61,875 bases of DNA from a virus, in the IMG/VR virus record IMGVR_UViG_3300021197_000785, positions 1 through 61,875 of that record; one strand, 5' to 3'. The notes below the pieces were generated by a model, which searched no databases, was not told the DNA's origin, and saw only the letters and a list, made by a program, of their open reading frames with translations. The position numbers and the translations under genes are program-made. Numbering within the stretch: position 1 is the first letter of the stretch; every line of letters starts with the position of its first letter. Positions 181 through 45,358 of the stretch are shown here, piece after piece.

Positions 181-731
181 CTGTGACCTGTAAGTTGTAG
201 GGTGAATCTTTTGTCTAATCCAATGTTTGCTGCTAAGTGCGGTGTGTCGCTTTCCCAAAAGACATAATCGCCTGCACGCCAATCAGTAATAGGAACACCA
301 TCTACTTCGCTGATGTGACCACTACGCCAATCTTCTAAGAATACAACAACACGAACACAGTCCATTAGTCTAACATTAAATAGTTCTCTGTATTTTTTAT
401 ATGTGTCTTTGTGTGTAGGAAGAATAACACCCGTGCCCATGCGGTAGTAACTGGTACCAACATCTGTCACACTGTAAGTATCCTCAAACCATTTGATGAT
501 TTGATCATTCCAAGCGGGTTGCGGCTTGCGCATGTCACATAAAAATCCAGTGTAATGACTTTGAGGATGCACATAACCCTGTCGCTTCCATTTCATCATG
601 TCACTAGGGTTATTAAAACTTTCAAGAGCGTAGTTTAGTTGTGTATAACTTACTTTACTCCAAAAAGGTTCAATGTGACCTTTATGCCAACGTTCGTGTG
701 TTTCCGTAATGGATGACTGTATATCTGTCAT
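177..731 (-). CDS. 2OG-Fe(II) / Asp-Asn hydroxylase-like dioxygenase
   Basis: Protein of 184 residues with the metal-binding pattern of a double-stranded beta-helix dioxygenase: H107-x-D109 (PTHKDT), distal H165 (DTPHLAAN) and R175 (KRFTLQL), the usual 2-oxoglutarate ligand. An in-frame start exists at 758, but the ATG at 731 has a GGAGAA ribosome site about 9 nt upstream and reduces the overlap with the dehydrogenase gene to 50 nt, so I prefer 731. It sits at the end of a sugar-nucleotide operon. The substrate is unknown; hydroxylation of a sugar, amino acid or protein side chain are all possible. Confidence 0.75.
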   Translation of the reverse strand: MTDIQSSITETHERWHKGHIEPFWSKVSYTQLNYALESFNNPSDMMKWKRQGYVHPQSHYTGFLCDMRKPQPAWNDQIIKWFEDTYSVTDVGTSYYRMGTGVILPTHKDTYKKYRELFNVRLMDCVRVVVFLEDWRSGHISEVDGVPITDWRAGDYVFWESDTPHLAANIGLDKRFTLQLTGHR

Positions 732-9503: not shown

Positions 9504-12167
9504 TTACTCAAATGAAAATAAATCATCAAACGTGTTAGCAGTTTGTGTTGCGCCTTTTAAGTCCCAGTCCAGTACACTTAATAAGTTATCAATTTTTTGA
9601 TCTACAATAGTTGCTTCCATTAGTCCGTTATCAAAGGGAAGTTCCTTGAACCACTGTGGCAAATGTGTCTCGTCTGTTGGATAACCAATACTAGTCCAAC
9701 CCAGAGGATTGCTTTTTAGTTTGCATACAATAGTTTTTGCTCCATCCATAATCTCTTGGCTGTACTTGTCGCCATTCATCTTACGCATGTTGTTCCAGTT
9801 CATTGCCGCTCTAACGTGCCCTGGCATGTTTGCTTTGCCTAGTCGCTTTTCTTCTGCACTGTACTTGGTCAAGTTGTTAACACGCTTGGGTGTGCCTTTT
9901 TCCCAACCTGGACGCTCATGAAATGTATTCTTAAACTCTTTTACCTTTTCAATAATTTCTTCGCGCTGACAACCAGTAAGCACATCCAGCAGTAGTTCAC
10001 TTAGAAAATCCTGCATAACCTTAGGAGTATCACTACGTTTGAGATCCAAGCCCATTGCTTTTACTTTGCCTGGCTTGCCATCTGTATCCAAACGGAAACC
10101 TTCTAAATCATAGATCAGTGCTGCATAACGCTTCTTAGTAATGTACAACCCTTTAGTTGCAACAATTTCTCTGCCGCCTCTAATAATCTCACCATTTTCA
10201 CGCGGACAATGAAAAGCACGTTCCATAAACACAGGAAACTCCTCATTGACTTGATCTGCAATACCATCATAGAGTTGTGTAACAATCTCTTTTGTCCACT
10301 CTTGCCGACCTGCTTCTACTTCTTCCTGCATCATGGGCCATGCACTAAAGTACACACTATCTGTATCGCCATATACAATGGCATCGCCTGTGTAATCTTC
10401 ATTGCCTGTTAGCAATCCATTTACAGTTTCAGCCATGCGTTTTGTGATACAGCGACCTGTTAGTGTAGTGCTTTGTCCTATACGGAAATCATAGAATCTA
10501 CAACCAGGATTTAGGATAGCACCATACAAACTGTTCAAGTTAATCTTTTTAACAAGTTGTCGTTTATCCCAATACTCAACATCACCGCCTTCATCCTTGG
10601 CTTTCTTTAGTTCTTTCTGCATAACTTTGCGTTCTGCATACCAGCGTTCAAGTAATGCAGGAATAACTCCCTTGCGTTCATATGTAAAGATAGTGCCATT
10701 AGCACTTAGCGTCCAGGGCTGATTACTATCAAACATTAAACGCCATACATCATATGCACTCAGCGTATCTTCGTCACCGTTCTCCCAGTCAATAGTAATC
10801 TCTGTGCCACGCTCCATTGCCATAACTGCACGATACTCTCTACTTCCAAACTCATTTTCCCAAGCCTGTGCAAAACTTGTACCACTTGCAGTCTTTTCAC
10901 GCAACATGTGTTCAGTCATTGTCTGGCGCAGTTGCCCTACCACAGTTTCTGGACCCATGTTAAGTGCGCGAATCACACTAGGATACAGGCTGTTAATATC
11001 AATAGCACCAATCCAATCATGTAGTCCTTTTTTAGGATACGCAACATATGCACCCGCTGCTACTATCTTTGGACCATCGTCCCTGCTTTTGCGATTAGGA
11101 ACAACCATACCACGACTGTGTGCATCATTAATAATTGCTTGCTCTGTTAGTGCAACAGCACCCATGGTAGTCATTAGTAGCACAGTGTTCTCATGTGCAA
11201 GAATGTTACTTAGATCAATAAAACGTAGTTTCTTATCCAGTTTGTTTAGCAGTGCAGTATCTTGCCTGTTATAATCAATAAATTTTTCAAAGTCCTGATT
11301 GTATAACTGATCGAGTGTGCCTTCATAAGCAACTTTGCGTTCATCAAGTTCATGTTCACCAATAGCATCCAGTGTGTAACTATGACGTTCTTCATAGGTG
11401 TATTTGCGATACAGTTGCATATAGTCCAAGTGTACACGCCCTACTAGATCAAATGTATTGCTTTCTTTACCAAAGCGTTCAAATGTGCGCTTTTTGGGCT
11501 GTTGTCCGAACAAGCACCACTTGCGGTTGTCATCTTTACTAAGCACACGGGTAATACGATTGATTGTGTAGGGTATATCATAACCTTCACTGTTCCAACC
11601 ACTTATAATATCTGCATCATCTAACAAGTCTAGGAATACTTCCAGCATCTCTGCTTCACTTGTAAACAAGTATGTGTTGTCAAAACGTTTTGTTAGATCC
11701 TTAGCAGTTTCCATTGTCATACCACTGGGCGGGATAGCAAGTGTTACAAGCGTATCTGTCCAGTCCAAGTATATACTAATTGCTGTAATTGGATTAAAAG
11801 GATCGTCAGGACTACTATAGCCTTTTTCTTTATGAAAATCTACTTCAATATCAAAGAACGCTGTTTGTAGTTTAGGTGCTTCTGCTCCTAGATAGTTTTC
11901 TTCCAAACAACGGAACACTGGATTGATGTCGCTCTCATATGTGCCTTTGTCTCCTTGTATTTTTAGTTCACGCTGAAACTCTTTGCGATTGCGTGTTGCA
12001 AATCGACTTACAGGCGTATCAAAGATAGTTTTATATTTGCCACGTTGATCATCATAATAAAACACATAGTTAGCACTATACTCTTTGTATTCTCGTTTGC
12101 CATCTACACGTTCCACTACATGGATACGATCACGTTCTCTATCAAAATAAGCGTCTACATAACTCAT
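9504..12167 (-). CDS. gp43: Family B DNA polymerase (T4 gp43-like)
   Basis: 887 residues (T4 gp43 is 898). Exonuclease motifs: FFDIEVD (D106/E108), GWNSEGYDIPY, and YNRQDTALL. Polymerase motifs: A as AIDINSLYPSVIRALN, B as KKINLNSLYGAILN, C as YGDTDSVYF, then KKRYAALI. Replicates phage DNA with 3'-5' proofreading, tethered by gp45. Reading could begin at 12227, but the ATG at 12167 forms a TAATG junction with the small membrane-protein gene upstream and matches family N-termini, so I use it. Transcribed with the DsbA-like gene from the promoter at 12737-12765. No inteins or split sites are seen. Confidence 0.96.
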   Translation of the reverse strand: MSYVDAYFDRERDRIHVVERVDGKREYKEYSANYVFYYDDQRGKYKTIFDTPVSRFATRNRKEFQRELKIQGDKGTYESDINPVFRCLEENYLGAEAPKLQTAFFDIEVDFHKEKGYSSPDDPFNPITAISIYLDWTDTLVTLAIPPSGMTMETAKDLTKRFDNTYLFTSEAEMLEVFLDLLDDADIISGWNSEGYDIPYTINRITRVLSKDDNRKWCLFGQQPKKRTFERFGKESNTFDLVGRVHLDYMQLYRKYTYEERHSYTLDAIGEHELDERKVAYEGTLDQLYNQDFEKFIDYNRQDTALLNKLDKKLRFIDLSNILAHENTVLLMTTMGAVALTEQAIINDAHSRGMVVPNRKSRDDGPKIVAAGAYVAYPKKGLHDWIGAIDINSLYPSVIRALNMGPETVVGQLRQTMTEHMLREKTASGTSFAQAWENEFGSREYRAVMAMERGTEITIDWENGDEDTLSAYDVWRLMFDSNQPWTLSANGTIFTYERKGVIPALLERWYAERKVMQKELKKAKDEGGDVEYWDKRQLVKKINLNSLYGAILNPGCRFYDFRIGQSTTLTGRCITKRMAETVNGLLTGNEDYTGDAIVYGDTDSVYFSAWPMMQEEVEAGRQEWTKEIVTQLYDGIADQVNEEFPVFMERAFHCPRENGEIIRGGREIVATKGLYITKKRYAALIYDLEGFRLDTDGKPGKVKAMGLDLKRSDTPKVMQDFLSELLLDVLTGCQREEIIEKVKEFKNTFHERPGWEKGTPKRVNNLTKYSAEEKRLGKANMPGHVRAAMNWNNMRKMNGDKYSQEIMDGAKTIVCKLKSNPLGWTSIGYPTDETHLPQWFKELPFDNGLMEATIVDQKIDNLLSVLDWDLKGATQTANTFDDLFSFE

Positions 12168-12451
12168 TAAAGAGCCCCTATAAGTTGTATAAGTGCCCAC
12201 AAATTCATCAATGTGAACCAGAAACATAGTATAAGAGCAAAAGCCGCTTTGCGTATCCAGGTACTAATAATTGCTAGTATACTTCCACATAGATATAGTG
12301 GAACAAACTGCCAACCATTGGGATCAAGAATTGTAAAACTGAGAATAGCACTTGCAGTAATAAGCATCACTGCTTCTACTAGTTCACAGTAAAACGCTAG
12401 AGGACTTAGTCTATAACTATTCCTAAAAAACTTGTAAATTTTACGATACAT
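12167..12451 (-). CDS. Small membrane protein, 94 aa
   Basis: Basic N-terminus (YRKIYKFFRNSYR) followed by about three hydrophobic segments near residues 25-45, 47-62 and 68-92. The stop overlaps the gp43 start (TAATG at 12165-12169), and its own start directly follows the DsbA-like stop, so it is tightly coupled between two replication/transcription genes. Function unknown. Residual frame-overlap with the longer gp43 reading is avoided by the 12167 start. Confidence 0.8.
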   Translation of the reverse strand: MYRKIYKFFRNSYRLSPLAFYCELVEAVMLITASAILSFTILDPNGWQFVPLYLCGSILAIISTWIRKAAFALILCFWFTLMNLWALIQLIGAL

Positions 12452-12781: not shown

Positions 12782-13666
12782 TTACCACTTGCGACATGAC
12801 CAATAACGTGCTTTTGTCTTAGGTCCTGGATTATCACAGTTATGTCTAGCACGGAAACTCTTACGAGCTTTTGGATTGCTTTTGCGAATACGCATTGTCT
12901 TACCTTTTACACTGCTTCCGCCATGTCCAAAGTTGACTTTAATTACGTTACCCTTTTTATTCTTAACGTAAACTTTAAACTTTTTTACATCGCCTTGCAT
13001 TGGCTTGTTTAGTTTGACCTTACGTCCTCTATATTCTGCTTCAAATAAATCATTTTCATCAATGCTGTATCCAAGATATCCAAAGTCCTCAAAGAACTGG
13101 TCATCATCTTCAAATGTTAGTTCTGATACATCTTCATTTACTAATGCTGCTTTATACATAATTACTGCTTTTGCAAAATTCTTATCTTGCATCATGCGTT
13201 TTGTTTCAGGATGATCTGGATTATCCACAGCCATACGCACACTACTGCCATCTATGTTGTTTTCTTTTTTAAAGTCCATATATGCCTGCATCTTTTTTGG
13301 ATCTATTTCACGAGCTTCTGCTATTGCATATTCAAATGCTTCGTTAATATCATCCATTGCTATCTGTGCTGTACTTGTTGCTTTAGGAAATGTTACAGGT
13401 TTAACACGTTGAATAGTACTTGCGCCTGCGCCTTGTCTCTGATCTACTTGAGCTTGCTTCTGCATTGCTGTTTGCACACGTTTGTCAGACTTTTTAATAG
13501 CATCTTTTGTTGCCTGTGAAGTATACTGATAACCGCCATCCTTTTGCATTTGTTGTTTAAACTTCTGCATCCTCTGGTCACCCATAGAGATATTCTTATC
13601 TGCTATAGGTGTATTAGTAACTGCAATAGTTCCTGGCTGTTCTGTTAGAAAATCGCTGGCTCTCAT
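12782..13666 (-). CDS. Probable head-associated protein with capsid-targeting-like N-terminus, 294 aa
   Basis: Starts MRASDFLTE, like the T4 internal-protein capsid-targeting pattern M-K-x-x-x-[DE]-F-[IL]-x-E. The middle is Gln/Lys-rich and low complexity, then acidic (DDDQFFEDFGYLGYSID). The C-terminus is strongly basic with a conserved marine-phage tail (FRARHNCDNPGPKTKARYW, then SCRKW) containing two cysteines and a histidine. No enzyme motif. It ends the head-protein block; translation is coupled to the upstream gene by a 4-nt overlap. A structural or ejected DNA-binding role is inferred. Confidence 0.75.
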   Translation of the reverse strand: MRASDFLTEQPGTIAVTNTPIADKNISMGDQRMQKFKQQMQKDGGYQYTSQATKDAIKKSDKRVQTAMQKQAQVDQRQGAGASTIQRVKPVTFPKATSTAQIAMDDINEAFEYAIAEAREIDPKKMQAYMDFKKENNIDGSSVRMAVDNPDHPETKRMMQDKNFAKAVIMYKAALVNEDVSELTFEDDDQFFEDFGYLGYSIDENDLFEAEYRGRKVKLNKPMQGDVKKFKVYVKNKKGNVIKVNFGHGGSSVKGKTMRIRKSNPKARKSFRARHNCDNPGPKTKARYWSCRKW

Positions 13667-14220
13667 CTGTCAGTCCTTGTTATTGTTTGTGACTTTGGAG
13701 TAGGTGTCAATGTTTTATTAACTACTCTACCCAGTGCGCTGCTAAAGTCTCCTTTACGCAATTGGTCTAGTGCTTGTGGAAATGTTTTGCCTGCACGTTC
13801 TGCAGCCTTCTTAATAGCACTTAAATCGCTGCCGCTAATATCTACATCAATATCAATTTGTTTCCCGTCTGGACTTATTGCAGGATAAGAGCCGCTAGGA
13901 AACTTGTTTCTTACACGCGCCGCTACTGCTTTTGGTCCGAAATAAGGGACTTCCATTGCTGCTTGTGCATCTTTAAAATCTTTTTGTAAAACAGGATCTT
14001 TATCTGCTTGAGGAGCCATTTTTTGTGCTTGTGCAGCACCTTTGCTTGCTATGCTAAACAGTTCTTGATCACTAAGATCGTCTAAACTTTTGCCCGTGCT
14101 TTTTTCCAAATACTGACGAATTTCGTCCACATCTTTACCTAGACTACGCATTGTTTTAACAATCTGTGCTGCTTCTTTACTGCCTTCTATCAGTTCAATT
14201 TGTTCTAACAATAGTCCCAT
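13663..14220 (-). CDS. Hypothetical protein of head-protein block, 185 aa
   Basis: Begins MGLLLEQIELIEG, which contains an L-I-E site like those cut by the T4-type prohead protease. Then helical, Ala/Asp/Lys-rich sequence without cysteines or enzymatic motifs. Overlaps both neighbours (4 nt and 1 nt). Contains a segment VAARVRNKFPSGSYPAISPDGKQ and ends Thr/Lys-rich. Function unknown; position suggests a packaged protein. Confidence 0.75.
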   Translation of the reverse strand: MGLLLEQIELIEGSKEAAQIVKTMRSLGKDVDEIRQYLEKSTGKSLDDLSDQELFSIASKGAAQAQKMAPQADKDPVLQKDFKDAQAAMEVPYFGPKAVAARVRNKFPSGSYPAISPDGKQIDIDVDISGSDLSAIKKAAERAGKTFPQALDQLRKGDFSSALGRVVNKTLTPTPKSQTITRTDR

Positions 14221-14507
14221 TAGTTTTTAACATTCTTTGCTTTACCCCTACGATTCTTTTTAGGGTCTTGTCTACGTTTTCTTTTTACTGCTTTAGCAAT
14301 TTCTGCTTTGCCACCTTTGGCTCTTAAACTTGCAGCCCTGCTTTTACTTAAACACTTTGGTTTGCCTTCGCCTTTTTTTCTATCACCACATTTACCAATT
14401 CGTTCGCCTTTGGTATTGTAACGATCCCAGCCTCCGCCTCCAGCACCACCTTTTTTTCCTTTGCCGAACCAGTCACGTAAATCCTCATGTAGTTCAACAA
14501 TACGCAT
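14220..14507 (-). CDS. Small very basic protein with Gly-rich and Cys motif, 95 aa
   Basis: Starts MRIVELHED (capsid-targeting-like). A Gly-rich stretch (GKGKKGGAGGGGW) leads to RIGKCGDRKKGEGKPKCLS, a C-x14-C segment, then a Lys/Arg-rich helix and the tail KNRRGKAKNVKN. Such modules recur in marine T4-like phage head-region proteins. The charge suggests DNA binding. Coupled by TAATG-type single-nucleotide overlaps on both sides. Confidence 0.78.
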   Translation of the reverse strand: MRIVELHEDLRDWFGKGKKGGAGGGGWDRYNTKGERIGKCGDRKKGEGKPKCLSKSRAASLRAKGGKAEIAKAVKRKRRQDPKKNRRGKAKNVKN

Positions 14508-15139
14508 TATTTCTTCTTACTGTTGCCCCAGTTGGCTGCACCAACTTTGCGGCATTTTACAAGTGCGCCACTAGCATATGCACTGGGCCATACTTTGTAG
14601 CGTGATTTTACTTTACGATAGCAAGCATCTTTTTCACCTGCTTTTTCATCAAACTGTTCTTCTGTAAGTGATTCTTCAACACTTTCACCTGCTGCTTTTT
14701 TAAACAAGTCTAGTTGTGTGCCTTTTGGAATCTCAATTACTTTAGGTTCTTTTTTCTTGTTTCTGTCCTGCAATCTAGCCATTGCATCCAAACTTGACCT
14801 GTTGCGTAGACTTGCAATACTTTTGTATTCTTCAAGTTCTTCTTCAGTAATACCTTCGCTCATGCCAGTTACTACCTTCATTGCACGATCTAACATACCG
14901 AGGTTTTGATCTACACTAATTTTAAGATCTGGATCATTGCGTTTTGCTTCTAGCTCACGCTTGGCAAGTGCTGTAAGTTTCATAGCAAGTTCTATCTTGT
15001 CGCCCTTGCCCATCTGCACAGCACGAACAAGTTCAAGCACTTCTGCTTGCACTGCTTTACGCTCAGGACTGAAAGATTTTTTCATAATCTCTACTGTGTC
15101 ATCCATTGCAGAGTTTTCTGAAAACTGATGAAAACGCAT
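14507..15139 (-). CDS. Head-block protein with conserved Cys-containing C-terminal module, 210 aa
   Basis: Begins MRFHQFSEN (capsid-targeting-like, F-S-E). The centre is helical and charged. The C-terminus carries the module DACYRKVKSRYKVWPSAYAS followed by GALVKCRKVGAANWGN, a motif I recognise as recurrent in marine T4-like phages, with two cysteines. No catalytic signature. Likely virion-associated; position and N-terminus are the reasons. Confidence 0.75.
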   Translation of the reverse strand: MRFHQFSENSAMDDTVEIMKKSFSPERKAVQAEVLELVRAVQMGKGDKIELAMKLTALAKRELEAKRNDPDLKISVDQNLGMLDRAMKVVTGMSEGITEEELEEYKSIASLRNRSSLDAMARLQDRNKKKEPKVIEIPKGTQLDLFKKAAGESVEESLTEEQFDEKAGEKDACYRKVKSRYKVWPSAYASGALVKCRKVGAANWGNSKKK

Positions 15140-15654
15140 TAGCCTTCCTCAGCCTGCTTTACTGCATACATGTGTGCATCTTTAAGAGCTTGGAATGCTT
15201 CAGCAATCTTCTCATGTGCTACATTCAAATAACTTTCGTCACCGCCCTCGGCAATTACTCCACCACTAAGTTGTCCACCTTCTGCTGTAATGTCAACAAG
15301 TTGTTCCATTACTTTGTATGTACTACTAAACATACGATCAAGTTTTGCTGCACCAATGTTTGTTTCTGCAACTGTTGTAGCAACTGTGCTAAGATCATTG
15401 CCAGCCTCAACTTCACTTTTCATAAAGTTGCGATAGCGTGTTGCCATGTCATCAGTTTCTTCAACTTCTTCTGACTCAACAACAACTGGCTGATAAGGAT
15501 TCTCTGCACTAATAGCATTGAACTTGCTTAGTAGGTTTGCTGTTTCAGCAATCTCTACTGGCTTTGTGCTTGGAGCACTTTCAACAACAACTGAAGTTTC
15601 CTTGTTCTCTTCGATGTCGTTTAGTTTCTGTACTAGTTTAAAAAAGTCAGACAT
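15139..15654 (-). CDS. Hypothetical helical protein of head-protein block, 171 aa
   Basis: The ATG at 15654 is preferred because it forms a TAATG junction with the upstream stop; an in-frame start at 15669 also exists. N-terminus MSDFFKLVQKLNDIEE contains a D-I-E site. Acidic, Ala/Glu/Val-rich, with no cysteine; the region ATRYRNFMKSEVEAGNDL begins a long helical part. Unknown function. Confidence 0.75.
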   Translation of the reverse strand: MSDFFKLVQKLNDIEENKETSVVVESAPSTKPVEIAETANLLSKFNAISAENPYQPVVVESEEVEETDDMATRYRNFMKSEVEAGNDLSTVATTVAETNIGAAKLDRMFSSTYKVMEQLVDITAEGGQLSGGVIAEGGDESYLNVAHEKIAEAFQALKDAHMYAVKQAEEG

Positions 15655-16880
15655 TATTTTTTGCTCCATTCACTGAATTTACTTTGTCTTAGGATGCCAC
15701 GTGGATCGCCTGTTGTTTTATCCTGTCCCATACTCATATTAGGCTTTGATTTAGGAAGTGCCATTTTGTTTGCCATTTTTTGTTTTGTTTGTGCAGGCAC
15801 TGCAGGTTTACTTTTTGGCATTGGCATTCTTTCTTTGGTCTTGCTTAGACTTGCAATGATGTCACCAATAACATCTTCTTCTTCAACTGCATCCTCAATT
15901 TTAACTCCCATTAACTTATCATAGCCCATCTTCTTAAAGTGTGCCTTGCTAGGTTCACTTTGATTAACAAGAGATCCATCAGGATTCATTTGATACTTTC
16001 TAATTCTTTGTTTCAAAATGTCTCGTTCTGCTGGCTTCATGTCATCAATAGTTCTACCAGGAGCAGCATCAATTGCATCTTGTTGTGCTTTTGTTAATTC
16101 TTCCAGATTTTCTAATGATTCACCTTCCATCATCTTCATATCAAATCCACTTACTTTGACACCATAACGATCTTCTAGTTCGTCGGCAACCATATCAAAA
16201 ATTTCATCTTCGCCGTCGCCAGGATTAACCATTACTTTTACATTTACATCTGTTGGAAGTTTATCAAGTGCTGGTCCATCATATTCAATGTTTGTTGCTT
16301 TAACCATTACTTCACGATCTTCTGAGATCACTGCTTCTTCAATATTTTCGCTAACCAAGCCCAGTTTCCTTGCAGCGTTATACAATGCTTCTTGGTAGTC
16401 GCCCATGTCAGCATACTTACTTTCATCGCCAACCATTGCTTCAATTTTGCGAGCAGCATCTTTGTCCATGCTGGCAAGTTGTCTCATGCTCATGCGACCT
16501 TCTACAACTTCTTCTTCATGTACTTCTTGTACATTTTCTTGTGGCATTGTCATAGCGTCTGTCATATCACCAGCAACAGGAACAACTGCTAGTTCTACGT
16601 CTGACATAATTTGACCTTCCATATAATGTTTAACACTACCAAGATAATCAGCGGCTTTGGTTAATTTACTTGCAACCCAGCCATCAATGCCTTCCATTTC
16701 GCTTACGTCTTTAAGCATCTTGTGAATTGATACTGCATATTTTGCACTTTTATAGCAATCGCTTCGCGCCATTTGTACTTCATGATCCTTTTCAGCCTCA
16801 TGTGCCATGTCGCCCAAGCCTTCGTTGAGTTGTTCTTTTTCAACATTTAGTTGTTCTAATTTTGTAATAATATCACGCAT
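15654..16880 (-). CDS. Hypothetical head-block protein, 408 aa
   Basis: First gene after the late promoter at 16908-16915. N-terminal residues 1-110 are helical (RDIITKLEQLNVEKEQLNEG). A central acidic segment contains a possible ferredoxin-like unit around VMVNPGDGEDEIFDMVADEL. The C-terminus is Lys/Pro/Met-rich with a repeated PKSKP motif (MPMPKSKPAVP, LPKSKPNM), then FSEWSKK. No enzyme motif. Candidate scaffold or packaged protein. Confidence 0.78.
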   Translation of the reverse strand: MRDIITKLEQLNVEKEQLNEGLGDMAHEAEKDHEVQMARSDCYKSAKYAVSIHKMLKDVSEMEGIDGWVASKLTKAADYLGSVKHYMEGQIMSDVELAVVPVAGDMTDAMTMPQENVQEVHEEEVVEGRMSMRQLASMDKDAARKIEAMVGDESKYADMGDYQEALYNAARKLGLVSENIEEAVISEDREVMVKATNIEYDGPALDKLPTDVNVKVMVNPGDGEDEIFDMVADELEDRYGVKVSGFDMKMMEGESLENLEELTKAQQDAIDAAPGRTIDDMKPAERDILKQRIRKYQMNPDGSLVNQSEPSKAHFKKMGYDKLMGVKIEDAVEEEDVIGDIIASLSKTKERMPMPKSKPAVPAQTKQKMANKMALPKSKPNMSMGQDKTTGDPRGILRQSKFSEWSKK

Positions 16881-16907
16881 AGTAATGTCCCTGTTCTACT
16901 GTAGTGT

Positions 16908-16915
16908 TATTTATC
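16908..16915 (-). promoter_or_regulatory. T4-like late promoter (GATAAATA)
   Basis: Minus-strand GATAAATA, 27 nt before the ATG at 16880, overlapping the stop codon of the upstream 71-residue gene. Drives the leftward part of the head-protein block. Confidence 0.65.
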
Positions 16916-17126
16916 GTCTTGCCATTGTAGTGCCCATGATATTACTCTTTACATCAAGTGCATTTTTTGCAGTACCGTCTGGATTCTTTGCCTGAGGAGC
17001 AACTGGTAATCCATTTTTATCTCTTTTAAGTTTTTGTCTTGCTTGAATAGGATTTGCAACCGCAGCAATGTTTCCACTTGCTGTTGCTGTTGCGCTTGCT
17101 GATTCTGTTATTTCTTTAATCTTCAT
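16911..17126 (-). CDS. Small protein with capsid-targeting-like N-terminus, 71 aa
   Basis: Begins MKIKEITES, closely matching the capsid-targeting pattern with an I-T-E cut site at residues 6-8. The rest is Ala/Thr/Asn-rich then Lys-rich (ARQKLKRDKNGLPVAPQAKN). No cysteines. It overlaps the upstream gene by 4 nt. If cleaved after Glu8, about 63 residues would remain in the head. Confidence 0.7.
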   Translation of the reverse strand: MKIKEITESASATATASGNIAAVANPIQARQKLKRDKNGLPVAPQAKNPDGTAKNALDVKSNIMGTTMARR

Positions 17127-17350
17127 GGCTTTTCCTCAGTAACTGAATAGTCTATCAAGTCAACAGGCACATCTGTCAAACTTTGAACTGTAAGATTGTA
17201 TTCAGGACTTTCAGTTATATACAGTTCTAAATTATTGCTAATGACACTTTCATCCAAACTATAATATCTTTCTGTAATAAGTTCATCATTGAGAAATATT
17301 CTGTATGGAGTGTTATCTTTTTCACATTTCATTACTGCTTCTATATACAT
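17123..17350 (-). CDS. Hypothetical protein, 75 aa
   Basis: Small, mixed alpha/beta-looking protein (MYIEAVMKCEKDNTPYRIFL start) that would form several short strands. It lacks the capsid-targeting pattern of its neighbours. Linked by a 4-nt overlap downstream and a 1-nt gap upstream. No recognised domain. Confidence 0.7.
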   Translation of the reverse strand: MYIEAVMKCEKDNTPYRIFLNDELITERYYSLDESVISNNLELYITESPEYNLTVQSLTDVPVDLIDYSVTEEKP

Positions 17351-17351
17351 T

Positions 17352-17648
17352 TCAATCCCTCATATTAAACGCAAAACTTACTTGCCTTGCTAGTTGTATG
17401 CCTTTGTCACGTTCGGCTTTTTTAGTACTCTTTTTCATTTTGTTTGCCTTAGCACGAAGTCTTTTTAAATCCGTTTTGCTAAGTTTATCTCCGGCGCCCT
17501 TACCTAAATACATTGCTGCTTTACGTTTTAAACTCCCTGGTCGGCTGCCTGGTTTTTCTGCTCTTTCATTAAAGTCCTCAGTTAGTTGTTGTAGTTCCTC
17601 CATCAGACTGTTGATTTTGTTGTTGTGTGTTGGCTGATCGTTGTCCAT
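17352..17648 (-). CDS. Basic hypothetical protein, 98 aa
   Basis: Starts inside the 3' end of the 1096-codon gene (71-nt overlap); an internal ATG at 17603 would cut the overlap to 26 nt. The conserved part is RPGSLKRKAAMYLGKGAGDK and a very Lys-rich helix after it. No cysteine. Seen size and charge fit a nucleic-acid-binding packaged protein, by inference only. Confidence 0.7.
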   Translation of the reverse strand: MDNDQPTHNNKINSLMEELQQLTEDFNERAEKPGSRPGSLKRKAAMYLGKGAGDKLSKTDLKRLRAKANKMKKSTKKAERDKGIQLARQVSFAFNMRD

Positions 17649-20600
17649 CGTTCTGCTCTTTTTGTTGCTGGATCCACGCTAGAGCTTTTCTGTTCTTAGG
17701 TGGAGTGTTTAAAAATCTCTGTGTCTCAACGTACACTTTATCAAAGTTTTTCTGTCTATCAATGTCTTCTAATCCTCCACTGTTGTCAATGATATGGAAA
17801 CGATCTGCACCAAAAATCTGCTGAAATTGCATTAAGTTTTGTTGTACGTTATTCCACATTTTTTCTACTTCTGCAGGTTTTAAACTGCGTTCTCTTTGCT
17901 TGTTGCGTTGTTGTGCAACTTCTAGGCTTGTGTTTACATATATCATACTAGTTTCATAACCAATGGCTTTTAGTTTTTGTGCCATAATTTGATACTTACT
18001 AACATCTTTGCCTGTGCCGTCAATAATCAAACCTAAACGTCCATCCAAGTAAGTTGCTTCGCGCCTACGGGATAAACCTTTTGCTCGATCACGGATCTCT
18101 TGGCCCTGGGGTGAATAGATAGTCTCAGGATCCAGAGAAAGACCCTGCTTATTCATTAAGTATTCATATACTTCATCGCTATTAATGCTACGCAATCCTG
18201 TGCCACCTAGTATGTTTTTAGCAACAAAACTTTTGCCAGCGCCTGGACCACCTGCTAGGAACACTGCTTTAAAGATGTGTGGGTCGTTTACGCCTTCGTC
18301 AACTTGTGCTTCTTGCACTGGCTCTTTCATTAAACTAGCAATTTGCTTTGCTAACTTGCTATTACGAGGAGCATCAGGCAGATCTGTCATTCTTAGTTTA
18401 CGAACTTCTGCAATCCGTGTGCCTTCATTTTTTTCAAATCTGCTAACAACTTCTTCTTGTGTGCCAGGACCATCAAAGTCATACATTGTATTGCCTTTTT
18501 GCACCACTGCATGATCAGCAGTTCCGTCATTGCGTACCAATGCCATAAGTTCGCCGCCGTGTATTAACTGTAATGCTTGCGCCACAACAACACAGCCTCC
18601 ATCAAATGGTCCAGCACCAATATTATCTAATAGCAGTTCATATACTTTGTCACTTGCGTCCTCGTCTACTTTATCCTTATCAAAGTAACCCTTAAATTTA
18701 TTTTTAATCTTATCATACATACTAGGTTCGTCAGGATCTTTTTTCTTATATCTATCACCTAGTCCAATTAGATCTGCAATGCGCTTGTCTGCGTCTGCTT
18801 CTTCTTTAGTTGGCTTACCATGTTTGTTATGTTGTGCCCATGCTATTGCATAAGGTGCACCTGGATCATCAAATTTCTTTTTTAGTTTTCTTACTTGTTT
18901 TTCTCTACCCGGAGGTGCTTCCTCAGTTTTTTTCTTTTTGCCTGCGCAGTGTGCTTTTTGCGAGAAACCTTTTGGATTGCTGCAGTTTATACTCTTTTTA
19001 TATTTTGCACTCCAGCCTTCTACTGGAAACTCTCTGTTAGGAGTCTTAAAATCTTTCTTACGCATAACAGTTTTAGCAATTAAGTCTAGTTCATTGTTGT
19101 CTTTGTCATACTGTAGTGCAAACGGCAAGTTAATATCTGTTTGCAAGTCTTTCATTACTGCTTCTTGTCCAGGTCCCATTTGCGCAATAGGCTTGCCGTA
19201 ACGTTTAAACTCTTGCTTAAACAGTCTAGTAAGTTCCGCCATTGTAATAGGCTTTACGTTACGAGCATCATTTACACGATCTAAGAAGTGACGTGTGAAC
19301 TCTACATCAATGCCTACTTTAGCAAACAGTTTGTCTGCAAACGTTTCTAGTTGATCTAAGTCAACAGAGGTAATTGCTTCGTTTGTTACTTTAGTCCAAT
19401 TGTTTGCATCCGCTAATAGAGATTGCGCATATTCTAAATAGTCATGATCATCTGCAATACTATATTCTTGTGGTTGGATAAAACTAATAGACTTGTCAGG
19501 GTTTACTCTAACAGTGATATTTTCTTCATTGTGTTTATAGATTCCTGATTCAAGTGCGTGTCTTAAGTCTACATCTTCGTATTTTAGTTTACCTGGTGTA
19601 CTCTTTTTAATCTTAAGTGGGCGGTGTGGAAACAGTGTCATTACAAGTCCACTACTAAACGGAACACCAATACTACCACGCTCATATATGTCTTTGTAGT
19701 ATGTTTTTTCAAACTTGTTTACTAGGTCATATAGTTCGTAAGCAGGCAAGTTAACACGGAACACATTTAAGTCTGCGCCTGTGTTAATAGCAACTAGCCA
19801 TCTATGATGCCCGTCCATGATGTAGTCGTCGCTACTCGCAATAACTGCTTTTCTGTTTGGTCCTTGTTCAATGTTCTTCATTAACTGCTTCATAATGCCT
19901 TCGTCGCTAAACTCTTTTTGCATTGCTTTTAGGTCACGAGCAGGGATAGTTTCTTTGGTAAACTTAGCACCATTCTTTTGTAGATAGTCTATAAACTCTG
20001 CATAGTCATCGCTTTTTACTTGCGGCATTTCTTTACGCAGTACACCTAGTGTGTCTTTAGGATCTGGTTTTTCAATGCGTAGTTCATTCATCTTCTTAGT
20101 TTTTTTCTTCATAGCATTTATATAGCGTCTGTACACTGCGGCGGCACTTGATTTGCCTGCTGCTTTTGCACGTTGCTCCATTGCTATAGCGGCTTGTATC
20201 TTATGTGCATGTTTCTTGCCTGAACTTTTAATCTTACGCACACTGGCTTCTGCATCCTTAACTGTTGCAAATTTTAGTCCTTGTATTGTACCTTTTGGAT
20301 TCTCATCTGTGTATAGATCACTGTGCTTTTTGCTACCAGCCTTTTGTCCTTTTTTACGAGGTATGCGTTTGCCTTCTGCCATCATTAACGCACTTGTTGG
20401 AATAACACCTTTGTATGCCAGTGTGCTATCATCATCCATTACATTTGGATCATCATCTAGTTTATCCATGTCCAACTTGCTAGTATCAATAGCAAATACA
20501 ACAATATTATCAATGTATTCGTCTGGCACTTCTTCATTTGCTTCTGCATGACTTTCTGCTACTTCCGGATCTTTAGCAAGATATACATATCCTGGTTTAC

Positions 20601-20868
20601 TATCTTCCCACTGTTGCTGGGCACCTGCACCGCCTAGTCCGTTTTTCATAATACTGTCTACAAATGCTCCGTAGGTAGCATGATACAATACATCAGCATC
20701 CTCAGAGATGCCTAGGTTAAACAGTGTGTTAGGGTCACTGTTCTTTGCTGCAGTAGGATGTAACAAGCCAAGTTTTTTAGCCTGACGTTTTGTTTCGCCT
20801 GGTTTAACATCCTTGGTTGTATTCTGTGTGGTAATTATACCAACGCCTGCAACTTCGCCTAGTTTCAT
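17578..20868 (-). CDS. Giant multi-domain 'polyvalent' protein: ART-like, ParB-like, cysteine-peptidase-like and P-loop kinase modules
   Basis: 1096 residues. N-terminus MKLGEVAGVG resembles the block's targeting pattern. Residues about 58-165: ADP-ribosyltransferase/KptA-like unit with LYHAT (H63) and GYVYLAKDPEVAESHA. About 170-260: basic helical module. About 300-400: ParB-like domain with the DGHHRW box (352-357). About 500-605: a domain with DVEFTRHFLDRVND. About 627-645: INCSNPKGFSQKAHCAG cysteine motif. About 745-800: papain/NlpC-like triad candidate C759, H786, D797/D799. About 865-1065: P-loop kinase resembling zeta toxin/T4 Pnk, with GGPGAGKS (873-880) and IIDGTGKD. Such mosaics are known as phage polyvalent proteins, thought to be delivered with DNA. 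Domain calls after the P-loop and ParB ones are tentative. Confidence 0.82.
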   Translation of the reverse strand: MKLGEVAGVGIITTQNTTKDVKPGETKRQAKKLGLLHPTAAKNSDPNTLFNLGISEDADVLYHATYGAFVDSIMKNGLGGAGAQQQWEDSKPGYVYLAKDPEVAESHAEANEEVPDEYIDNIVVFAIDTSKLDMDKLDDDPNVMDDDSTLAYKGVIPTSALMMAEGKRIPRKKGQKAGSKKHSDLYTDENPKGTIQGLKFATVKDAEASVRKIKSSGKKHAHKIQAAIAMEQRAKAAGKSSAAAVYRRYINAMKKKTKKMNELRIEKPDPKDTLGVLRKEMPQVKSDDYAEFIDYLQKNGAKFTKETIPARDLKAMQKEFSDEGIMKQLMKNIEQGPNRKAVIASSDDYIMDGHHRWLVAINTGADLNVFRVNLPAYELYDLVNKFEKTYYKDIYERGSIGVPFSSGLVMTLFPHRPLKIKKSTPGKLKYEDVDLRHALESGIYKHNEENITVRVNPDKSISFIQPQEYSIADDHDYLEYAQSLLADANNWTKVTNEAITSVDLDQLETFADKLFAKVGIDVEFTRHFLDRVNDARNVKPITMAELTRLFKQEFKRYGKPIAQMGPGQEAVMKDLQTDINLPFALQYDKDNNELDLIAKTVMRKKDFKTPNREFPVEGWSAKYKKSINCSNPKGFSQKAHCAGKKKKTEEAPPGREKQVRKLKKKFDDPGAPYAIAWAQHNKHGKPTKEEADADKRIADLIGLGDRYKKKDPDEPSMYDKIKNKFKGYFDKDKVDEDASDKVYELLLDNIGAGPFDGGCVVVAQALQLIHGGELMALVRNDGTADHAVVQKGNTMYDFDGPGTQEEVVSRFEKNEGTRIAEVRKLRMTDLPDAPRNSKLAKQIASLMKEPVQEAQVDEGVNDPHIFKAVFLAGGPGAGKSFVAKNILGGTGLRSINSDEVYEYLMNKQGLSLDPETIYSPQGQEIRDRAKGLSRRREATYLDGRLGLIIDGTGKDVSKYQIMAQKLKAIGYETSMIYVNTSLEVAQQRNKQRERSLKPAEVEKMWNNVQQNLMQFQQIFGADRFHIIDNSGGLEDIDRQKNFDKVYVETQRFLNTPPKNRKALAWIQQQKEQNDGQRSANTQQQNQQSDGGTTTTN

Positions 20869-21642
20869 TTATTTTGGCTCGTTTGTATTAATAATAGACA
20901 TAACTTTGTCTTGTGCTGCTTTTTTCATATTGATTAGCGGATCAGCAATGTTCTTATATACCCAACTGTTTTTGTTTACTTTGCCCTGTCTAGCATTATC
21001 AATTGCTCGTAGTACATCTTGTCCTACCTCAGTGCGTTTGAGTTTGTCAGTTGTTTGCCTAATACGATCATATACATCATTCTCTAATTCTTGACCAGGG
21101 CCGCGTGGTGGATTTAGATTTAACTTAGGATCTGTCATTTGTGCATAACGTTGTGCTTTGCCTTTATCTGTACTTGCAGGTTCCATAGGCTGTGGCTTAC
21201 GCTTTATTGGATTGTACATAGGCTTGCCAGCGTCAGGTAATCCTGCTACTGTTTTCTTTCCAAGGTTTGGTCCTGTAGCATATGCCTTAAATGCGTATGC
21301 ATTGGCATCTTTACCAGGCGCATACTCTGGCGCATATTTGTCCCGTAGTAATCTTAAATACAGTGTACCAATTTCAGCATTTTTATTTGCATCCTGTAAA
21401 TCATTCATAGTAAAGTTTGTGCCAAAATTAGCGTTGACATCATCCAGTGCAGGCTTGCGTACTTGCGCAATGCCAATTGCTTTATTTTTTAAGTGTTTAT
21501 CACCTACTTTAACATTGCCCTTGTTGTCTCTGTGCTGTTTATTAGATTCTTTGTCTAATCTCTTATTAAGAAGATCGGAACTTACACCTGCATCATTAGC
21601 AATCTTATCTATTTCCTGTTGTGTTAACTCGCTCAATCGCAT
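20869..21642 (-). CDS. Lytic transglycosylase (SLT-like) domain protein
   Basis: 257 residues. The SLT fold is indicated by the catalytic glutamate E32 (RLDKESN), AIGIAQV at 55-61 (family GxxQ strand), and AYATGPN at about 117-123 (family AYNxG/GP). It cleaves the MurNAc-GlcNAc bond of peptidoglycan. The N-terminus MRLSELTQQE again resembles a capsid-targeting sequence, suggesting a virion-borne enzyme that opens the wall during DNA entry rather than a lysis enzyme. Residues about 130-257 are Pro/Lys/Asn-rich without a known domain. Coupled by 1-nt overlap with the nucleotidyltransferase. Confidence 0.8.
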   Translation of the reverse strand: MRLSELTQQEIDKIANDAGVSSDLLNKRLDKESNKQHRDNKGNVKVGDKHLKNKAIGIAQVRKPALDDVNANFGTNFTMNDLQDANKNAEIGTLYLRLLRDKYAPEYAPGKDANAYAFKAYATGPNLGKKTVAGLPDAGKPMYNPIKRKPQPMEPASTDKGKAQRYAQMTDPKLNLNPPRGPGQELENDVYDRIRQTTDKLKRTEVGQDVLRAIDNARQGKVNKNSWVYKNIADPLINMKKAAQDKVMSIINTNEPK

Positions 21643-23639
21643 TATGCTTTTCCTTTACCAAACAGTTGTTTGCGTTTCTTAAAATCATCTTTAAATTTAT
21701 TCACTACGTCAGTAAATACGTTTTCTTCTAGTCCAATATTCTTTCTACACCCGTCAATCATTTTCATAACTTCAAAATGTTCTGGACTACCTGGCTGACA
21801 CTGCATCTCTTTTTTATAAAGTTTCATTAGCAGTATACGACCTGGCTTGTGTTCATGTGCCATTGGATCACCACAGTGTTCGCCTAGTTCTTTTTCTTCA
21901 TTTTTTCTTGTGGCTTTTAATCCTTTTACTAATTGTTGATAACGCAAAAGTTCTATAAACGCCTTTTCGGCATCAGCCAATGAAGCACTTGGTTCCATAA
22001 CACTCAATCTGTCGCTGGTGTCTTTAGGTATACGGACTAAATCCTTGTCGCTTTCTTGTATATCTTTGTCAATGCCACGACTTGCTGTGCCACCACGCTT
22101 GCGCTGTTGTGCTAGTTCGCGATATGCTTCTTGAATGCCATTATTGTAGGTTGCTAACAGATCCATATAGCGATCAAAGTTGTCTTGTATTCCTTTAGCA
22201 TCTTTAACTTTAGCAAGGTTCGCAACAGTCATTGCCATTTCGCTAACTTCTTTAAGCGCACTGCTAATACTCATTGTACCAATACCGCGAATAGCAATAA
22301 CACTGTTCATCGGATCTTGTTTATTGAAGTCTGTAATTTCTTCATTGGCAGGTGTAAAATGTTCTCTGATACTTTCTGCGTAGTAAGGATTCTCTGGATC
22401 TGCATCTCCTGCTTTATCGGGCCACCATTCTAATGAAAACTTCATACCGCGCTTAAACATATCCTTCATTGAAAGAATACGTTTTTCATATTCTTCTTTT
22501 TCAGGCTTAGTTCTGCCATACACTACATCCAAGCAAAAATTTAGTGTTACAGCATTTGCAGTTAAACTTCCGCAACGTGCGCCAACTTCGTTCTTAAGGT
22601 GATCAATAAGTATACTTCCACTACACTTGGCAAGTTCATCACTGAGATCCTCATCAACTTCTAGATCAATATAACTGTAAACAAAATCATAGTGTGGTGC
22701 TGGTGATCCGTGCAGTATATATTCGTCTCTTACAACAATACGCTTGAATCCATCTTTATTATGCCAAACAGTTTGTTCATCAGTTGCTTCGTCAGGTTCG
22801 CCAAATGTTTTTTCCAAAAACTGGCTATAATCTGCTGCTTCTGGATGATCCCATTTACTATAATCTGCTTCTCGCACAATTTCATTTTCAGGCAGTGTGT
22901 GTCCACCTTCCATAATTGCTTGGTATAATGATTTTTTTCTTTGTTTCATATTAAGGTTCTCTACAAGTGTGTCAACTCTAATGCAGGCTTCTAAGATGTA
23001 GCAATCATCTGCACCCAACTCAATAAGTTGATCTAGTATTTGGTCTGCGCGAACAAGTTGTTCGTTAATTTTTTGTGACATAGTATTGTGTATTTTTGGA
23101 TCATACTGTCCAAATAAATCTGTAATCATTGCCTTTTGTGTTTCATTGTCTGCTTGTGCAAAGTTTGCTCTAAACTCACTGGCACTGCGCATAGGCTTGC
23201 CCAGCACATTAAACTGTAGTGTAGGCACTGTAACAATGTAGCCATGCTTGTCAAAGCCCTGCATGTCTTTGCTTGCTGGCTGATAATAACTTGGTTGTCC
23301 GTCTTTGCGAGGTTTGAATGAGAAGCGAGGATCTTCAGCCATGTCTTTGTCACTGACTGCAAACAACGCGATTGTGTTTTGGGGATCAAAGTTGTCTGTA
23401 ATTTCAGTTGCTTGGTATGGATTTTTTACTTGAACAACACGGCTTGGATCAACACCTGTTAGTGCCATCATTGCTCGCTTCTCATCAAATGTGAATGGGG
23501 ATTTTGGGGGATCTACCTTATTACTGGTAGCGATGTATACACGATTCTTACCGAAACGCTTTACAAGAGCATCGTAAACACTCTTATGACCTTTATGGAA
23601 CGGGTGAAAACGCCCCGGATAGATTACGACTGTATCCAT
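21642..23639 (-). CDS. Nucleotidyltransferase (HxGH class) fused to a long C-terminal extension
   Basis: 665 residues. The N-terminal ~180 residues form a cytidylyl/adenylyltransferase-like domain: GRFHPFHKGH (9-18) is the canonical HxGH site, and FRANFAQ near 165 may be the second site. Family enzymes make CDP-, NAD- or coenzyme-type dinucleotides. The remaining ~480 residues contain ELGADDCYILEACIRVDTLV, acidic segments, and a conserved LRYQQLVKGLKATRKNEEKE stretch. This architecture recurs in marine T4-like phages in the head region. Preceded by a late promoter at 23662-23669. Substrate unknown. Confidence 0.8.
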   Translation of the reverse strand: MDTVVIYPGRFHPFHKGHKSVYDALVKRFGKNRVYIATSNKVDPPKSPFTFDEKRAMMALTGVDPSRVVQVKNPYQATEITDNFDPQNTIALFAVSDKDMAEDPRFSFKPRKDGQPSYYQPASKDMQGFDKHGYIVTVPTLQFNVLGKPMRSASEFRANFAQADNETQKAMITDLFGQYDPKIHNTMSQKINEQLVRADQILDQLIELGADDCYILEACIRVDTLVENLNMKQRKKSLYQAIMEGGHTLPENEIVREADYSKWDHPEAADYSQFLEKTFGEPDEATDEQTVWHNKDGFKRIVVRDEYILHGSPAPHYDFVYSYIDLEVDEDLSDELAKCSGSILIDHLKNEVGARCGSLTANAVTLNFCLDVVYGRTKPEKEEYEKRILSMKDMFKRGMKFSLEWWPDKAGDADPENPYYAESIREHFTPANEEITDFNKQDPMNSVIAIRGIGTMSISSALKEVSEMAMTVANLAKVKDAKGIQDNFDRYMDLLATYNNGIQEAYRELAQQRKRGGTASRGIDKDIQESDKDLVRIPKDTSDRLSVMEPSASLADAEKAFIELLRYQQLVKGLKATRKNEEKELGEHCGDPMAHEHKPGRILLMKLYKKEMQCQPGSPEHFEVMKMIDGCRKNIGLEENVFTDVVNKFKDDFKKRKQLFGKGKA

Positions 23640-28236: not shown

Positions 28237-28922
28237 TTATTTGTTTTCCTTATTTGATATTCAATAATTTTGTTTACTTTTGACCCAAGTTTAAATTGTA
28301 CAAGTTGTAGTAATCGTTCATTGGTTACATATCCAATGTTTTCGCCACACCATGTACCCCATCTGCGCACTGTGTCACTGTTGTTTATTTGAATATCATC
28401 TGGATATTGCATTGCCCAACGTGACCAATCAGTAAATTCTTCGAATGACATACGTTCGCCTACTATCTGAAATTTAAATTTATTATATGGTAAGCGTTTT
28501 TTTCTATAATGTATGTTACGATCTGCCTGTGTGCCAGGAAAATACCGAACACTTACAAGTTCCAGTATTGTATCAGTAACATCCGATTCTTTACTGTTAA
28601 GACGATTTACATACTGTATAACCTGATCTATATTATCAAGGTCACTAGTATAATAATTAAGTATTGTTCTTTCAACACGCACTCTATCATTGTGTCTTTT
28701 AGCAAATCGTCTTACTGTTCCACTAAAACTTTTTTGTATTTCTGTATCAACTTTGTATCCCCACCAGTCAACTGTTCTGACCTTCATTAACTCTGGCACA
28801 CGGTACTGATACATTAATACTTCAAGACGATAAAGATACTTGCCGTAAAAAAGTCTATCGTTATGCTTTAACGCTAGGTTGTGCTGATTGCTCAGCGTCT
28901 CCAACTTCTGCAGTTGATCCAT
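28233..28922 (-). CDS. Hypothetical protein, 229 aa
   Basis: Starts within the last 62 nt of the Clp gene; an AGG ribosome site about 7 nt before supports this ATG. Basic, Tyr/Arg-rich, with aromatic segments KVRTVDWWGYK and DWSRWAMQYPDD. No catalytic motif recognised. Its transcription follows dnaJ-clp, so it may belong to the same chaperone-linked unit. Confidence 0.75.
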   Translation of the reverse strand: MDQLQKLETLSNQHNLALKHNDRLFYGKYLYRLEVLMYQYRVPELMKVRTVDWWGYKVDTEIQKSFSGTVRRFAKRHNDRVRVERTILNYYTSDLDNIDQVIQYVNRLNSKESDVTDTILELVSVRYFPGTQADRNIHYRKKRLPYNKFKFQIVGERMSFEEFTDWSRWAMQYPDDIQINNSDTVRRWGTWCGENIGYVTNERLLQLVQFKLGSKVNKIIEYQIRKTNK

Positions 28923-31134: not shown

Positions 31135-31949
31135 TTATCATCCCGTAATTTCTTGCATATATTTAATTGTTGTTCAGTTAAGTTTTCAGGTATTTTAACC
31201 AATACTTGTACAAGCAAATCACCTCTTGTACTAGTCTTTGTGTACATACCATGATTGGGTATTTTCAGCGTTGCACCGTATTGTGTGCCTGCTGGAATAT
31301 TTAGGTTGAGTGTCTTATTTTCAATAGTATGTATTTGAACTACTGTACCTATTATAGCATCCCATGCGCCTATTGTCAAGTGCATTTTTAGGTTGTCATT
31401 GTCTCGGGTAAACACTTCGTGGTCTAGCATATTAATTGTAACAGTAAGGTCACCAGGACTTAAATTACTATGTATGTAATCTCCTAGTCCACTATATTTA
31501 ATTTTTGTACCATTGTTGACTCCAATTGGTATCTTTAAATTTACAAGATGCCTTGAACCGTTGGTGTGTCTTATGCTAACTGTTTTTTGTTGTTCGCTTA
31601 GTATTTCTTCCAGTGTGCAGTCCACTGTGATGCCCAGGTTTTTATTTGATTTTACACGTTGGTAATCGCGTTTACTAGGATGGAATCCTGCACTGCCAAA
31701 TACAGTAAACATGTCATCATAAACATCACTAGTGTTTATCTTAATGTTTTGCCTACGACTGTTGCGAACGTCAAATGCTGCACGTTTATGAGGATCTTTA
31801 AGAACTTCATATGCTTCTGCAACCGCGTGGAAAGTGTCAACATCTCCGCCGCTGTCAGGGTGATGCTGTTTTGCTTTGTTGCGATATGCTGATTGTATAT
31901 CTTTAGGACTACATGTAGGTTCCAGTCCTAGTACATCATAATAGTTCAT
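31131..31949 (-). CDS. J-domain co-chaperone (CbpA/DnaJ-like)
   Basis: 272 residues: J domain about 1-65 with H30-P31-D32 (KQHHPDSGG), a linker, then two DnaJ C-terminal beta domains (from about 105, with IGVNNGTKIKYSGLGD and IPAGTQYGATLKI). The zinc-finger cysteines of DnaJ are absent, so it is CbpA-type. J-proteins stimulate DnaK ATPase and select substrates. First gene of the unit, with a promoter just upstream, coupled to the Clp gene by ATGA. Expected to redirect host DnaK. Confidence 0.88.
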   Translation of the reverse strand: MNYYDVLGLEPTCSPKDIQSAYRNKAKQHHPDSGGDVDTFHAVAEAYEVLKDPHKRAAFDVRNSRRQNIKINTSDVYDDMFTVFGSAGFHPSKRDYQRVKSNKNLGITVDCTLEEILSEQQKTVSIRHTNGSRHLVNLKIPIGVNNGTKIKYSGLGDYIHSNLSPGDLTVTINMLDHEVFTRDNDNLKMHLTIGAWDAIIGTVVQIHTIENKTLNLNIPAGTQYGATLKIPNHGMYTKTSTRGDLLVQVLVKIPENLTEQQLNICKKLRDDK

Positions 31950-42103: not shown

Positions 42104-42136
42104 CACGTCATAACAAAAATCTAACGGAGAAGAATT

Positions 42137-42646: not shown

Positions 42647-42650
42647 TAAT

Positions 42651-42724: not shown

Positions 42725-42729
42725 ATATT

Positions 42730-42805: not shown

Positions 42806-42809
42806 ATAT

Positions 42810-42885
<76 letters not shown>

Positions 42886-42886
<1 letters not shown>

Positions 42887-44087: not shown

Positions 44088-44116
44088 ATTATCTCCTCAA
44101 CATCAACTTACTCTTT

Positions 44117-45323: not shown

Positions 45324-45358
45324 TTTTTTGGTCCTCGAGTAATTTAATCATTAAATAT

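Follow-up and report, generated by a model that had tools for sequence, protein, structure and literature searches.

A T4-type leader on unrelated genes suggests a set of head-packaged effectors in a marine jumbo-phage fragment

Positions 12782–23639 of the virus record IMGVR_UViG_3300021197_000785 raise the question of why genes with unrelated products should begin with much the same short peptide. The entire record, 61,875 bases, was analysed and is referred to here as the window; the 12 genes of the block (p1–p12) all lie on its minus strand. An earlier reading of the sequence (the original prediction) had likened several of these N-termini to those of the T4 internal proteins and had proposed a family of head-packaged, ejected effectors. 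In our view it is likely that the block encodes cargo carried in the head of a marine jumbo phage; its members would enter the head by means of the leader, be trimmed by a prohead protease of the S77 (gp21) type and be ejected with the DNA. Since the leader is found on unrelated genes, and since one product (p7) also carries a copy of the predicted capsid cleavage site, the block probably encodes a packaged and pre-loaded set of injected proteins.

The six N-termini cited in the original prediction (p1, p3, p4, p7, p10 and p11) are all present as described, on the minus strand, but only those of p1, p3, p4 and p7 end in the glutamate of the cut rule. These four carry the full T4-type leader, M[KR]xx[DEQ][FLI]x(1,2)E, in which a basic residue at position 2 is followed by an acidic or amide residue, a hydrophobic residue and a terminal hydrophobic-x-Glu; p10, p11 and p12 do not show this combination. 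The leaders read from the T4 genome are MKTYQEFIAE (ipII and ipIII) and MKTFKEF...TITE (ipI), and gp23 has SFLTE/AE, where the slash marks the established cut position. The polyvalent protein p10 and the transglycosylase p11 had been counted as members by their N-terminal pattern; this could not be upheld, because the cut-site glutamate is missing in both and the pattern therefore does not place them in the set. Three full-length homologues of p10 retain MKL[GS]E[VF] and likewise lack the glutamate. The genes of the block are as follows, with a slash at each candidate cut.

12782–13666, minus strand: p1, 294 amino acids; leader MRASDFLTE (nucleotides 13640–13666); C-terminal phrog_7595 domain (E = 7e-12).
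13663–14220, minus strand: p2, 185 amino acids; no leader at the start; conserved [IL][IL]E/G at residues 10–13.
14220–14507, minus strand: p3, 95 amino acids; leader MRIVELHE (nucleotides 14484–14507), then a DLRDWFGKG domain (phrog_727).
14507–15139, minus strand: p4, 210 amino acids; leader MRFHQFSE (nucleotides 15116–15139); C-terminal KDACYRKVKSRY...ALVKCRK domain (phrog_727).
15139–15669, minus strand: p5, 176 amino acids; a candidate late site, IEE, at residues 19–21, not conserved; membership weak.
15654–16880, minus strand: p6, 408 amino acids; MRDIITKLEQLNVEKEQLNE/G.
16911–17126, minus strand: p7, 71 amino acids; leader MKIKEITE (nucleotides 17103–17126).
17058–17102, minus strand: residues 9–23 of p7, SASATATASGNIAAV, a copy of the predicted post-cleavage N-arm of the capsid protein.
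17123–17350, minus strand: p8, 75 amino acids; untagged; internal ELITE.
17352–17648, minus strand: p9, 98 amino acids; conserved LTE/D, with the glutamate-terminated triplet at residues 22–24 (LTED or IAED in homologues).
17578–20868, minus strand: p10, putative polyvalent protein, 1096 amino acids; MKLGEVAG, a degenerate tag without the cut-site glutamate.
20869–21642, minus strand: p11, 257 amino acids; SLT-type lytic transglycosylase domain; MRLSELTQ, a degenerate tag without the cut-site glutamate.
21642–23639, minus strand: p12, 665 amino acids; untagged; N-terminal nucleotidyltransferase (NMNAT/cytidylyltransferase-like; PF01467, E = 7e-7).

The leader is clustered. The motif M[KR]x(2,3)[DEQN][FLIV]x(1,2)E is found in 4 of the 12 block genes compared with none of the 67 other genes of the window (Fisher p = 3e-4); a looser motif is matched by 2% of internal methionines. 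Gene starts were called simply, and the motif was refined during the work and fixed after part of the data had been seen. Among relatives, gene families in which at least half of the members are tagged number 18 of 122 upstream of the DNA polymerase gene (PolB) and 0 of 88 downstream (p = 6e-5, coverage-based clustering). An earlier family-level test using single-linkage clustering gave 5 of 54 against 2 of 56, which was not significant (p = 0.27); because that procedure merged multi-domain proteins into one cluster, coverage-based clustering took its place. The related contig G001 has no leader match, stopping 4 kb upstream of PolB and lacking the block. Short N-termini rich in Lys/Arg and Glu are typical of phage proteins, and with a short motif and only four cases in the window a chance origin might be considered. 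The empty counts of 0 of 67 and 0 of 88, together with the statistics above, nevertheless make chance extremely unlikely, as does the conservation of the p1 leader (MRANEFITE, MRASEFITE, MKASEFITE, MRAKDFITE) in homologues with bodies only 29–52% identical.

When the bodies of 30 tagged proteins from four genomes were compared without their leaders, they fell into 16 groups. The leader is therefore shared without the body and, as far as the sequences indicate, is a tag rather than a family, in agreement with the original claim of a T4-internal-protein-like leader on unrelated proteins. It could be supposed instead that the tagged genes are diverged duplicates, the N-termini of which are a relic without any targeting role. 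Such descent does apply to gp54–gp66 of Agrobacterium phage Atu_ph07, which are a true paralogous family, and p3, p4 and a protein from the related genome G002 share domain similarity. As a general explanation we regard it as very unlikely, given the 16 body groups, the occurrence of the NMNAT domain both with and without the tag, and the common leader of unrelated cyanophage S-CREM2 enzymes (SAM hydrolase, NMNAT and kinase) detected in virions by mass spectrometry. In the case of the NMNAT domain, p12 starts directly with the enzyme, and distant homologues place MYISELAE/, MFINELAE/ or MFAHELYE before the same domain. The p3 domain stands behind hydrophobic-x-Glu both as a free gene (LHE/DLRDWF) and in fused proteins (MTE/DLKDWF, VNE/DLRDWF, VTE/NLRKWF), a pattern which is suggestive only, because these sequences are related.

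The second line of evidence comes from p7. Behind its tag p7 reads ITE/SASATATASGNIAAVAN, and the capsid proteins of the group read LME/NATAGATSSGNVAVLN (Atu_ph07), LAE/NATAGSTQAGNVATLN (G002) and LKE/AATTGASAAGNVATLN (G001) just before a conserved IRRVMP stretch, at the place where T4 gp23 is cut. By this alignment, what follows the tag in p7 copies both the junction at which the group's major capsid protein is predicted to be cut and the mature N-arm of that protein. A junction profile built from the seven p7-family sequences alone was run over all called proteins. In G001 the capsid site ranked first of 40,659 windows (z = 6.2, next 4.7), in G002 second behind that genome's own p7, and in Atu_ph07 second of 137,226 (z = 7.8, next 4.8) behind residue 731 of gp53, a tagged kinase protein to the C-terminus of which an arm copy is fused. 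After the profile had been enlarged by two sequences, roughly two million windows were scanned in six frames; the only matches above threshold were the p7-family members, three capsid proteins, one low-complexity sequence and three C-terminal parts, namely those of Atu_ph07 gp53, a p6 homologue (L066) and a further protein (L051). As a pattern, the junction occurs at ten distinct sites in 4.07 million residues (four capsid proteins, five p7-like proteins and Atu_ph07 gp53) and at none in five shuffles. The T4/cyanophage-type junction pattern gave 14 distinct sites, of which two lie in capsid proteins and 12 in other, mostly small, proteins; five shuffles gave one. In S-CREM2, gp160 has GFTGAAAPEGPVAGYDPLM near its N-terminus, the capsid protein of the same phage has GFTGAAAPGGPNAGFDPVM, and this is the sole site above threshold in that proteome.

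These data bear on two further explanations. The p7 family might be a small shell component or decoration that arose from the N-terminus of the capsid protein, not cargo, and the block a mixed set of late genes. Besides the resemblance of p7 to the capsid N-arm, this would be in keeping with the T4 minor capsid protein gp24, in which a short N-terminal leader likewise precedes a Ser/Thr-rich stretch; however, the same copy is found at the C-terminus of the effector-like kinase gp53, within a p6 homologue and, in S-CREM2 gp160, close to the N-terminus, and we consider a structural role of this kind unlikely. Alternatively, the peptide might bind the scaffold, the portal or another partner, such as a nearby Clp chaperone, and remain uncut, with the glutamate as part of a helix. 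In two block members the first part of the peptide is indeed present but the glutamate is not, and ClpA-like and DnaJ genes, identified by synteny with Atu_ph07, lie nearby (28861–31949). We nevertheless judge an uncut binding peptide to be an improbable explanation: the glutamate and the hydrophobic residue preceding it are among the most constant tag positions in homologues of p1, p3, p4 and p7, and in p7 both align with the predicted cut junction of the capsid protein.

The presence of the block families in virions, as had been predicted, is supported by homologues detected by mass spectrometry in the cyanophages S-CREM2 and S-SZBM1. The virion proteome of S-CREM2 has been published with coordinates (PMC10665884), and its detected non-structural proteins include gp154 (NMNAT, MKNFSSFLTE), gp6 (SAM hydrolase, MKDFDSFLEE), gp14 (kinase, MKRFDAFLTE), gp13 (MKDLHSFLTE) and gp136 (MQTFSMFFSE). 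A leader of the form F[ILMFV]xE occurs in 4 of 47 detected open reading frames and in none of 175 others (p = 0.002); this value is exploratory, because the test, which used in-frame ATGs and in which gp14 was missed by the reading-frame rule, replaced a first test with a looser motif that was not significant (4 of 49 against 7 of 159), the annotated starts having been missed and the motif having been loose. Homologues of p3 and p4 are joined in one detected polypeptide, S-CREM2 gp160, with 61% identity to p4 over 64 amino acids (E = 1e-20) and a match of p3 to one stretch (E = 0.004) that is weak by itself. In S-SZBM1 the virion-detected NMNAT (S-SZBM1_140; PMC9146016) begins MRFRQFIIE and matches the nucleotidyltransferase domain of p12 with 36% identity over 56 amino acids (E = 0.001). 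As a separate observation, S-CREM2 (OR473000) gp12, which is annotated as a Cas9-like nuclease (locus L208, 7704–10313) and was detected by mass spectrometry, has LRFASFMAE/AAV about 25 residues in, which fits the cut rule.

The original prediction had pointed to a gp21-type protease elsewhere in the genome as a check, and the larger relatives do encode an S77 protease: it was found above cut-off in G001 (PolB 87% identical), G002, G003 and six further related records, and in every searched related record larger than 110 kb. The 62 kb window does not encode the protease; because it is a fragment and includes no head genes, the prediction's refuting case of a genome lacking a gp21-like protease does not apply to it.

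The presumably polyvalent p10 is linked to the tagged set solely through Atu_ph07 gp53, which is a homologue of its kinase domain and carries a complete tag (MKWNDLNE). This C-terminal zeta-type kinase (residues 867–1038; PF06414, E = 1e-11; PF13671, E = 5e-13) passes the curated cut-off (44.8 bits versus 22.3 for PF06414), and other regions of p10 match phrog_2859, phrog_23027 and phrog_14518, all of unassigned function, and weakly a ParB-like family. A sequence search of the kinase domain against solved structures gave only weak adenylate-kinase matches, and a fold prediction from four sequences was not used (mean predicted local distance difference test score 36). For p11 the SLT match is marginal (PF01464, 22.3 bits versus a cut-off of 21.3, E = 1e-4); no homologues were present among the related loci compared at that stage, and a sequence search against solved structures gave no match.

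Several points weigh against the view that the block is packaged cargo. The window contains no head genes, the evidence from virions concerns homologues in other phages, with cleavage of the window proteins being predicted, and the authors of the S-CREM2 study note that carry-over is possible in their mass spectrometry (PMC10665884). The capsid cut junctions were placed by analogy with T4 gp23 and by alignment, and an ungapped search did not find the capsid-arm copy in three T4-like records (G029, G020 and G019). In Atu_ph07 the strict motif is found in 11 of 47 called genes within coding sequences 31–76, a cluster that contains 29 proteins identified in virions by the genome's authors through mass spectrometry, versus 8 of 781 elsewhere; most of these 11 belong to one paralogous array, and the independent events are thus fewer than the count implies. 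Within the block, p10 and p11 lack the glutamate, p12 lacks the tag, and p2, p5, p6, p8 and p9 have no leader at the protein start. Some of the untagged genes have a conserved hydrophobic-x-Glu further in (LIE/G at residues 10–12, LNE/G at 18–20 and LTE/D at 22–24); homologues of p2 retain IELIEG, IELLEG or IEILEG, and distant homologues of p6 begin MKTTDFLNE and MKSSHFLGE.

In the packaging scheme that we favour, proteins with unrelated bodies would be made late and drawn by the N-terminal leader into the prohead's scaffolding core, where the gp21-type protease would cut them after hydrophobic-x-Glu while maturing the capsid. The mature proteins would then leave the head with the DNA on ejection and act as first-wave effectors, comprising a nucleotidyltransferase, a kinase, a wall hydrolase and small basic cysteine-containing domains. 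The arm copy, in p7 and at the ends of larger cargo in relatives, may make these proteins good protease substrates or may allow them to occupy the place of the arm on the inner wall. For the host the outcome would likely be early takeover or counter-defence; from their presumed roles, p12 could alter NAD metabolism, and the p10 kinase and the p11 wall hydrolase could act on entry. We also suggest, tentatively and at somewhat less than an even chance, that cargo of T4-related marine and jumbo phages copies the junction and N-arm of its own capsid protein, matched by lineage, as a docking and processing signal, and that large polyvalent effectors are polyproteins cut between domains at hydrophobic-x-Glu. 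We did not adopt a reading in which every [LI]xE within p10 is cut, because sites of this type occur too often.

With a leader recognisable from sequence, it would become possible to catalogue the proteins that uncultivated marine and jumbo phages inject, the majority of which are annotated as hypothetical. The junction copy adds another signal open to testing and an inexpensive means of predicting cut sites. Virion proteomes are already available for the cultured phages S-CREM2, S-SZBM1 and Atu_ph07, in which these proposals can be tested.

As regards the phage itself, the original prediction had framed the comparison in terms of marine T4-like genomes, and here the data point elsewhere. The window PolB (9504–12227, minus strand) is closest to those of Sinorhizobium phage Phosso (51%) and Atu_ph07 (47%), followed by the RaK2-like group, and gene order is shared with Atu_ph07 at PolB, at ClpA and DnaJ, and at replication factor C (the names replication factor C and ClpA being taken from this synteny and from reading the sequence by eye). 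PolB identities of 84–97% are frequent among viral-contig relatives, and contigs with PolB 71–87% identical reach 134, 220 and 289 kb. On account of this affinity, the gene order and the large contigs of its relatives, we assign the window to a jumbo phage of the Atu_ph07/RaK2 kind, of which it is a fragment, and not to a standard marine T4-like phage. In Atu_ph07 (MF403008), positions 41844–54191, inside the cluster of coding sequences 31–76, encode about a dozen paralogous tagged proteins (M[KR]WxQL[TN]E) with the motifs YRGM...SFICTTS...EVWVSG, which by eye are candidate ADP-ribosyltransferases. Elsewhere in the window we noted the following features.

38409–39863, minus strand: TctA over its full length (PF01970, E = 2e-88), which forms the large membrane subunit of a tripartite tricarboxylate transporter and is unusual for a phage.
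37367–38416, minus strand: a gene adjoining TctA, with a signal-peptide-like N-terminus and no Pfam match, which could encode the binding protein of TctA.
46925–48118, minus strand: class-V aminotransferase (PF00266, E = 6e-22) resembling serine/alanine-glyoxylate aminotransferase, a possible auxiliary metabolic gene.
682–2837, minus strand: UDP-glucose/GDP-mannose dehydrogenase beside an NAD-dependent epimerase, a surface-sugar or nucleotide-sugar pathway.
42651–42886, minus strand: adjacent tRNA genes for Trp, Glu and Arg.

Comparison with known systems indicates both common features and differences. The T4 internal proteins Ip1–3 share only the leader, which packages foreign proteins (PMC12373910, PMC3012670, PMC9958956). 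Like the block, IPI, IPII and IPIII have a short basic–hydrophobic leader ending in hydrophobic-x-Glu on otherwise unrelated proteins, and relatives encode the S77 protease. In contrast to the T4 proteins, the block cargo is larger and enzymatic (NMNAT, kinase and transglycosylase), its leaders take lineage-specific forms, and it includes a capsid-junction copy; inspection of residues 1–40 of the T4 internal proteins showed no such copy. Such a copy in cargo is apparently undescribed; the capsid-targeting literature that we found in open papers concerns T4, P1, P22 and SPN3US-type phages. With regard to the polyvalent proteins of Iyer et al. (2017; PMC5512222), the resemblance is that p10 contains, besides its kinase domain, several regions with matches to different phage families. 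In the parts of that account available to us, packaging of the phage members is predicted from gene context and neither a leader nor a prohead-protease site is mentioned. The virion NMNAT/cytidylyltransferases of S-CREM2 and S-SZBM1 are related to the p12 domain but carry a T4-like leader, which p12 does not, and the portions of their papers that we consulted do not mention it. For polyvalent effectors and virion NMNATs alike, the leader offers a mechanism of head entry where these earlier papers, to the extent seen, relied on gene context or left the matter open. The ejection proteins of SPN3US/phiKZ-type phages are likewise head cargo of jumbo phages processed by a prohead protease, packaging and processing being predicted in the present case; their propeptides range from about 20 to more than 250 residues, mostly 111–254, compared with 8–10 for the block leader. 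The present analysis thus extends a known packaging principle, the capsid targeting sequence of T4, to an uncultivated marine jumbo lineage and links it to polyvalent and NMNAT cargo.

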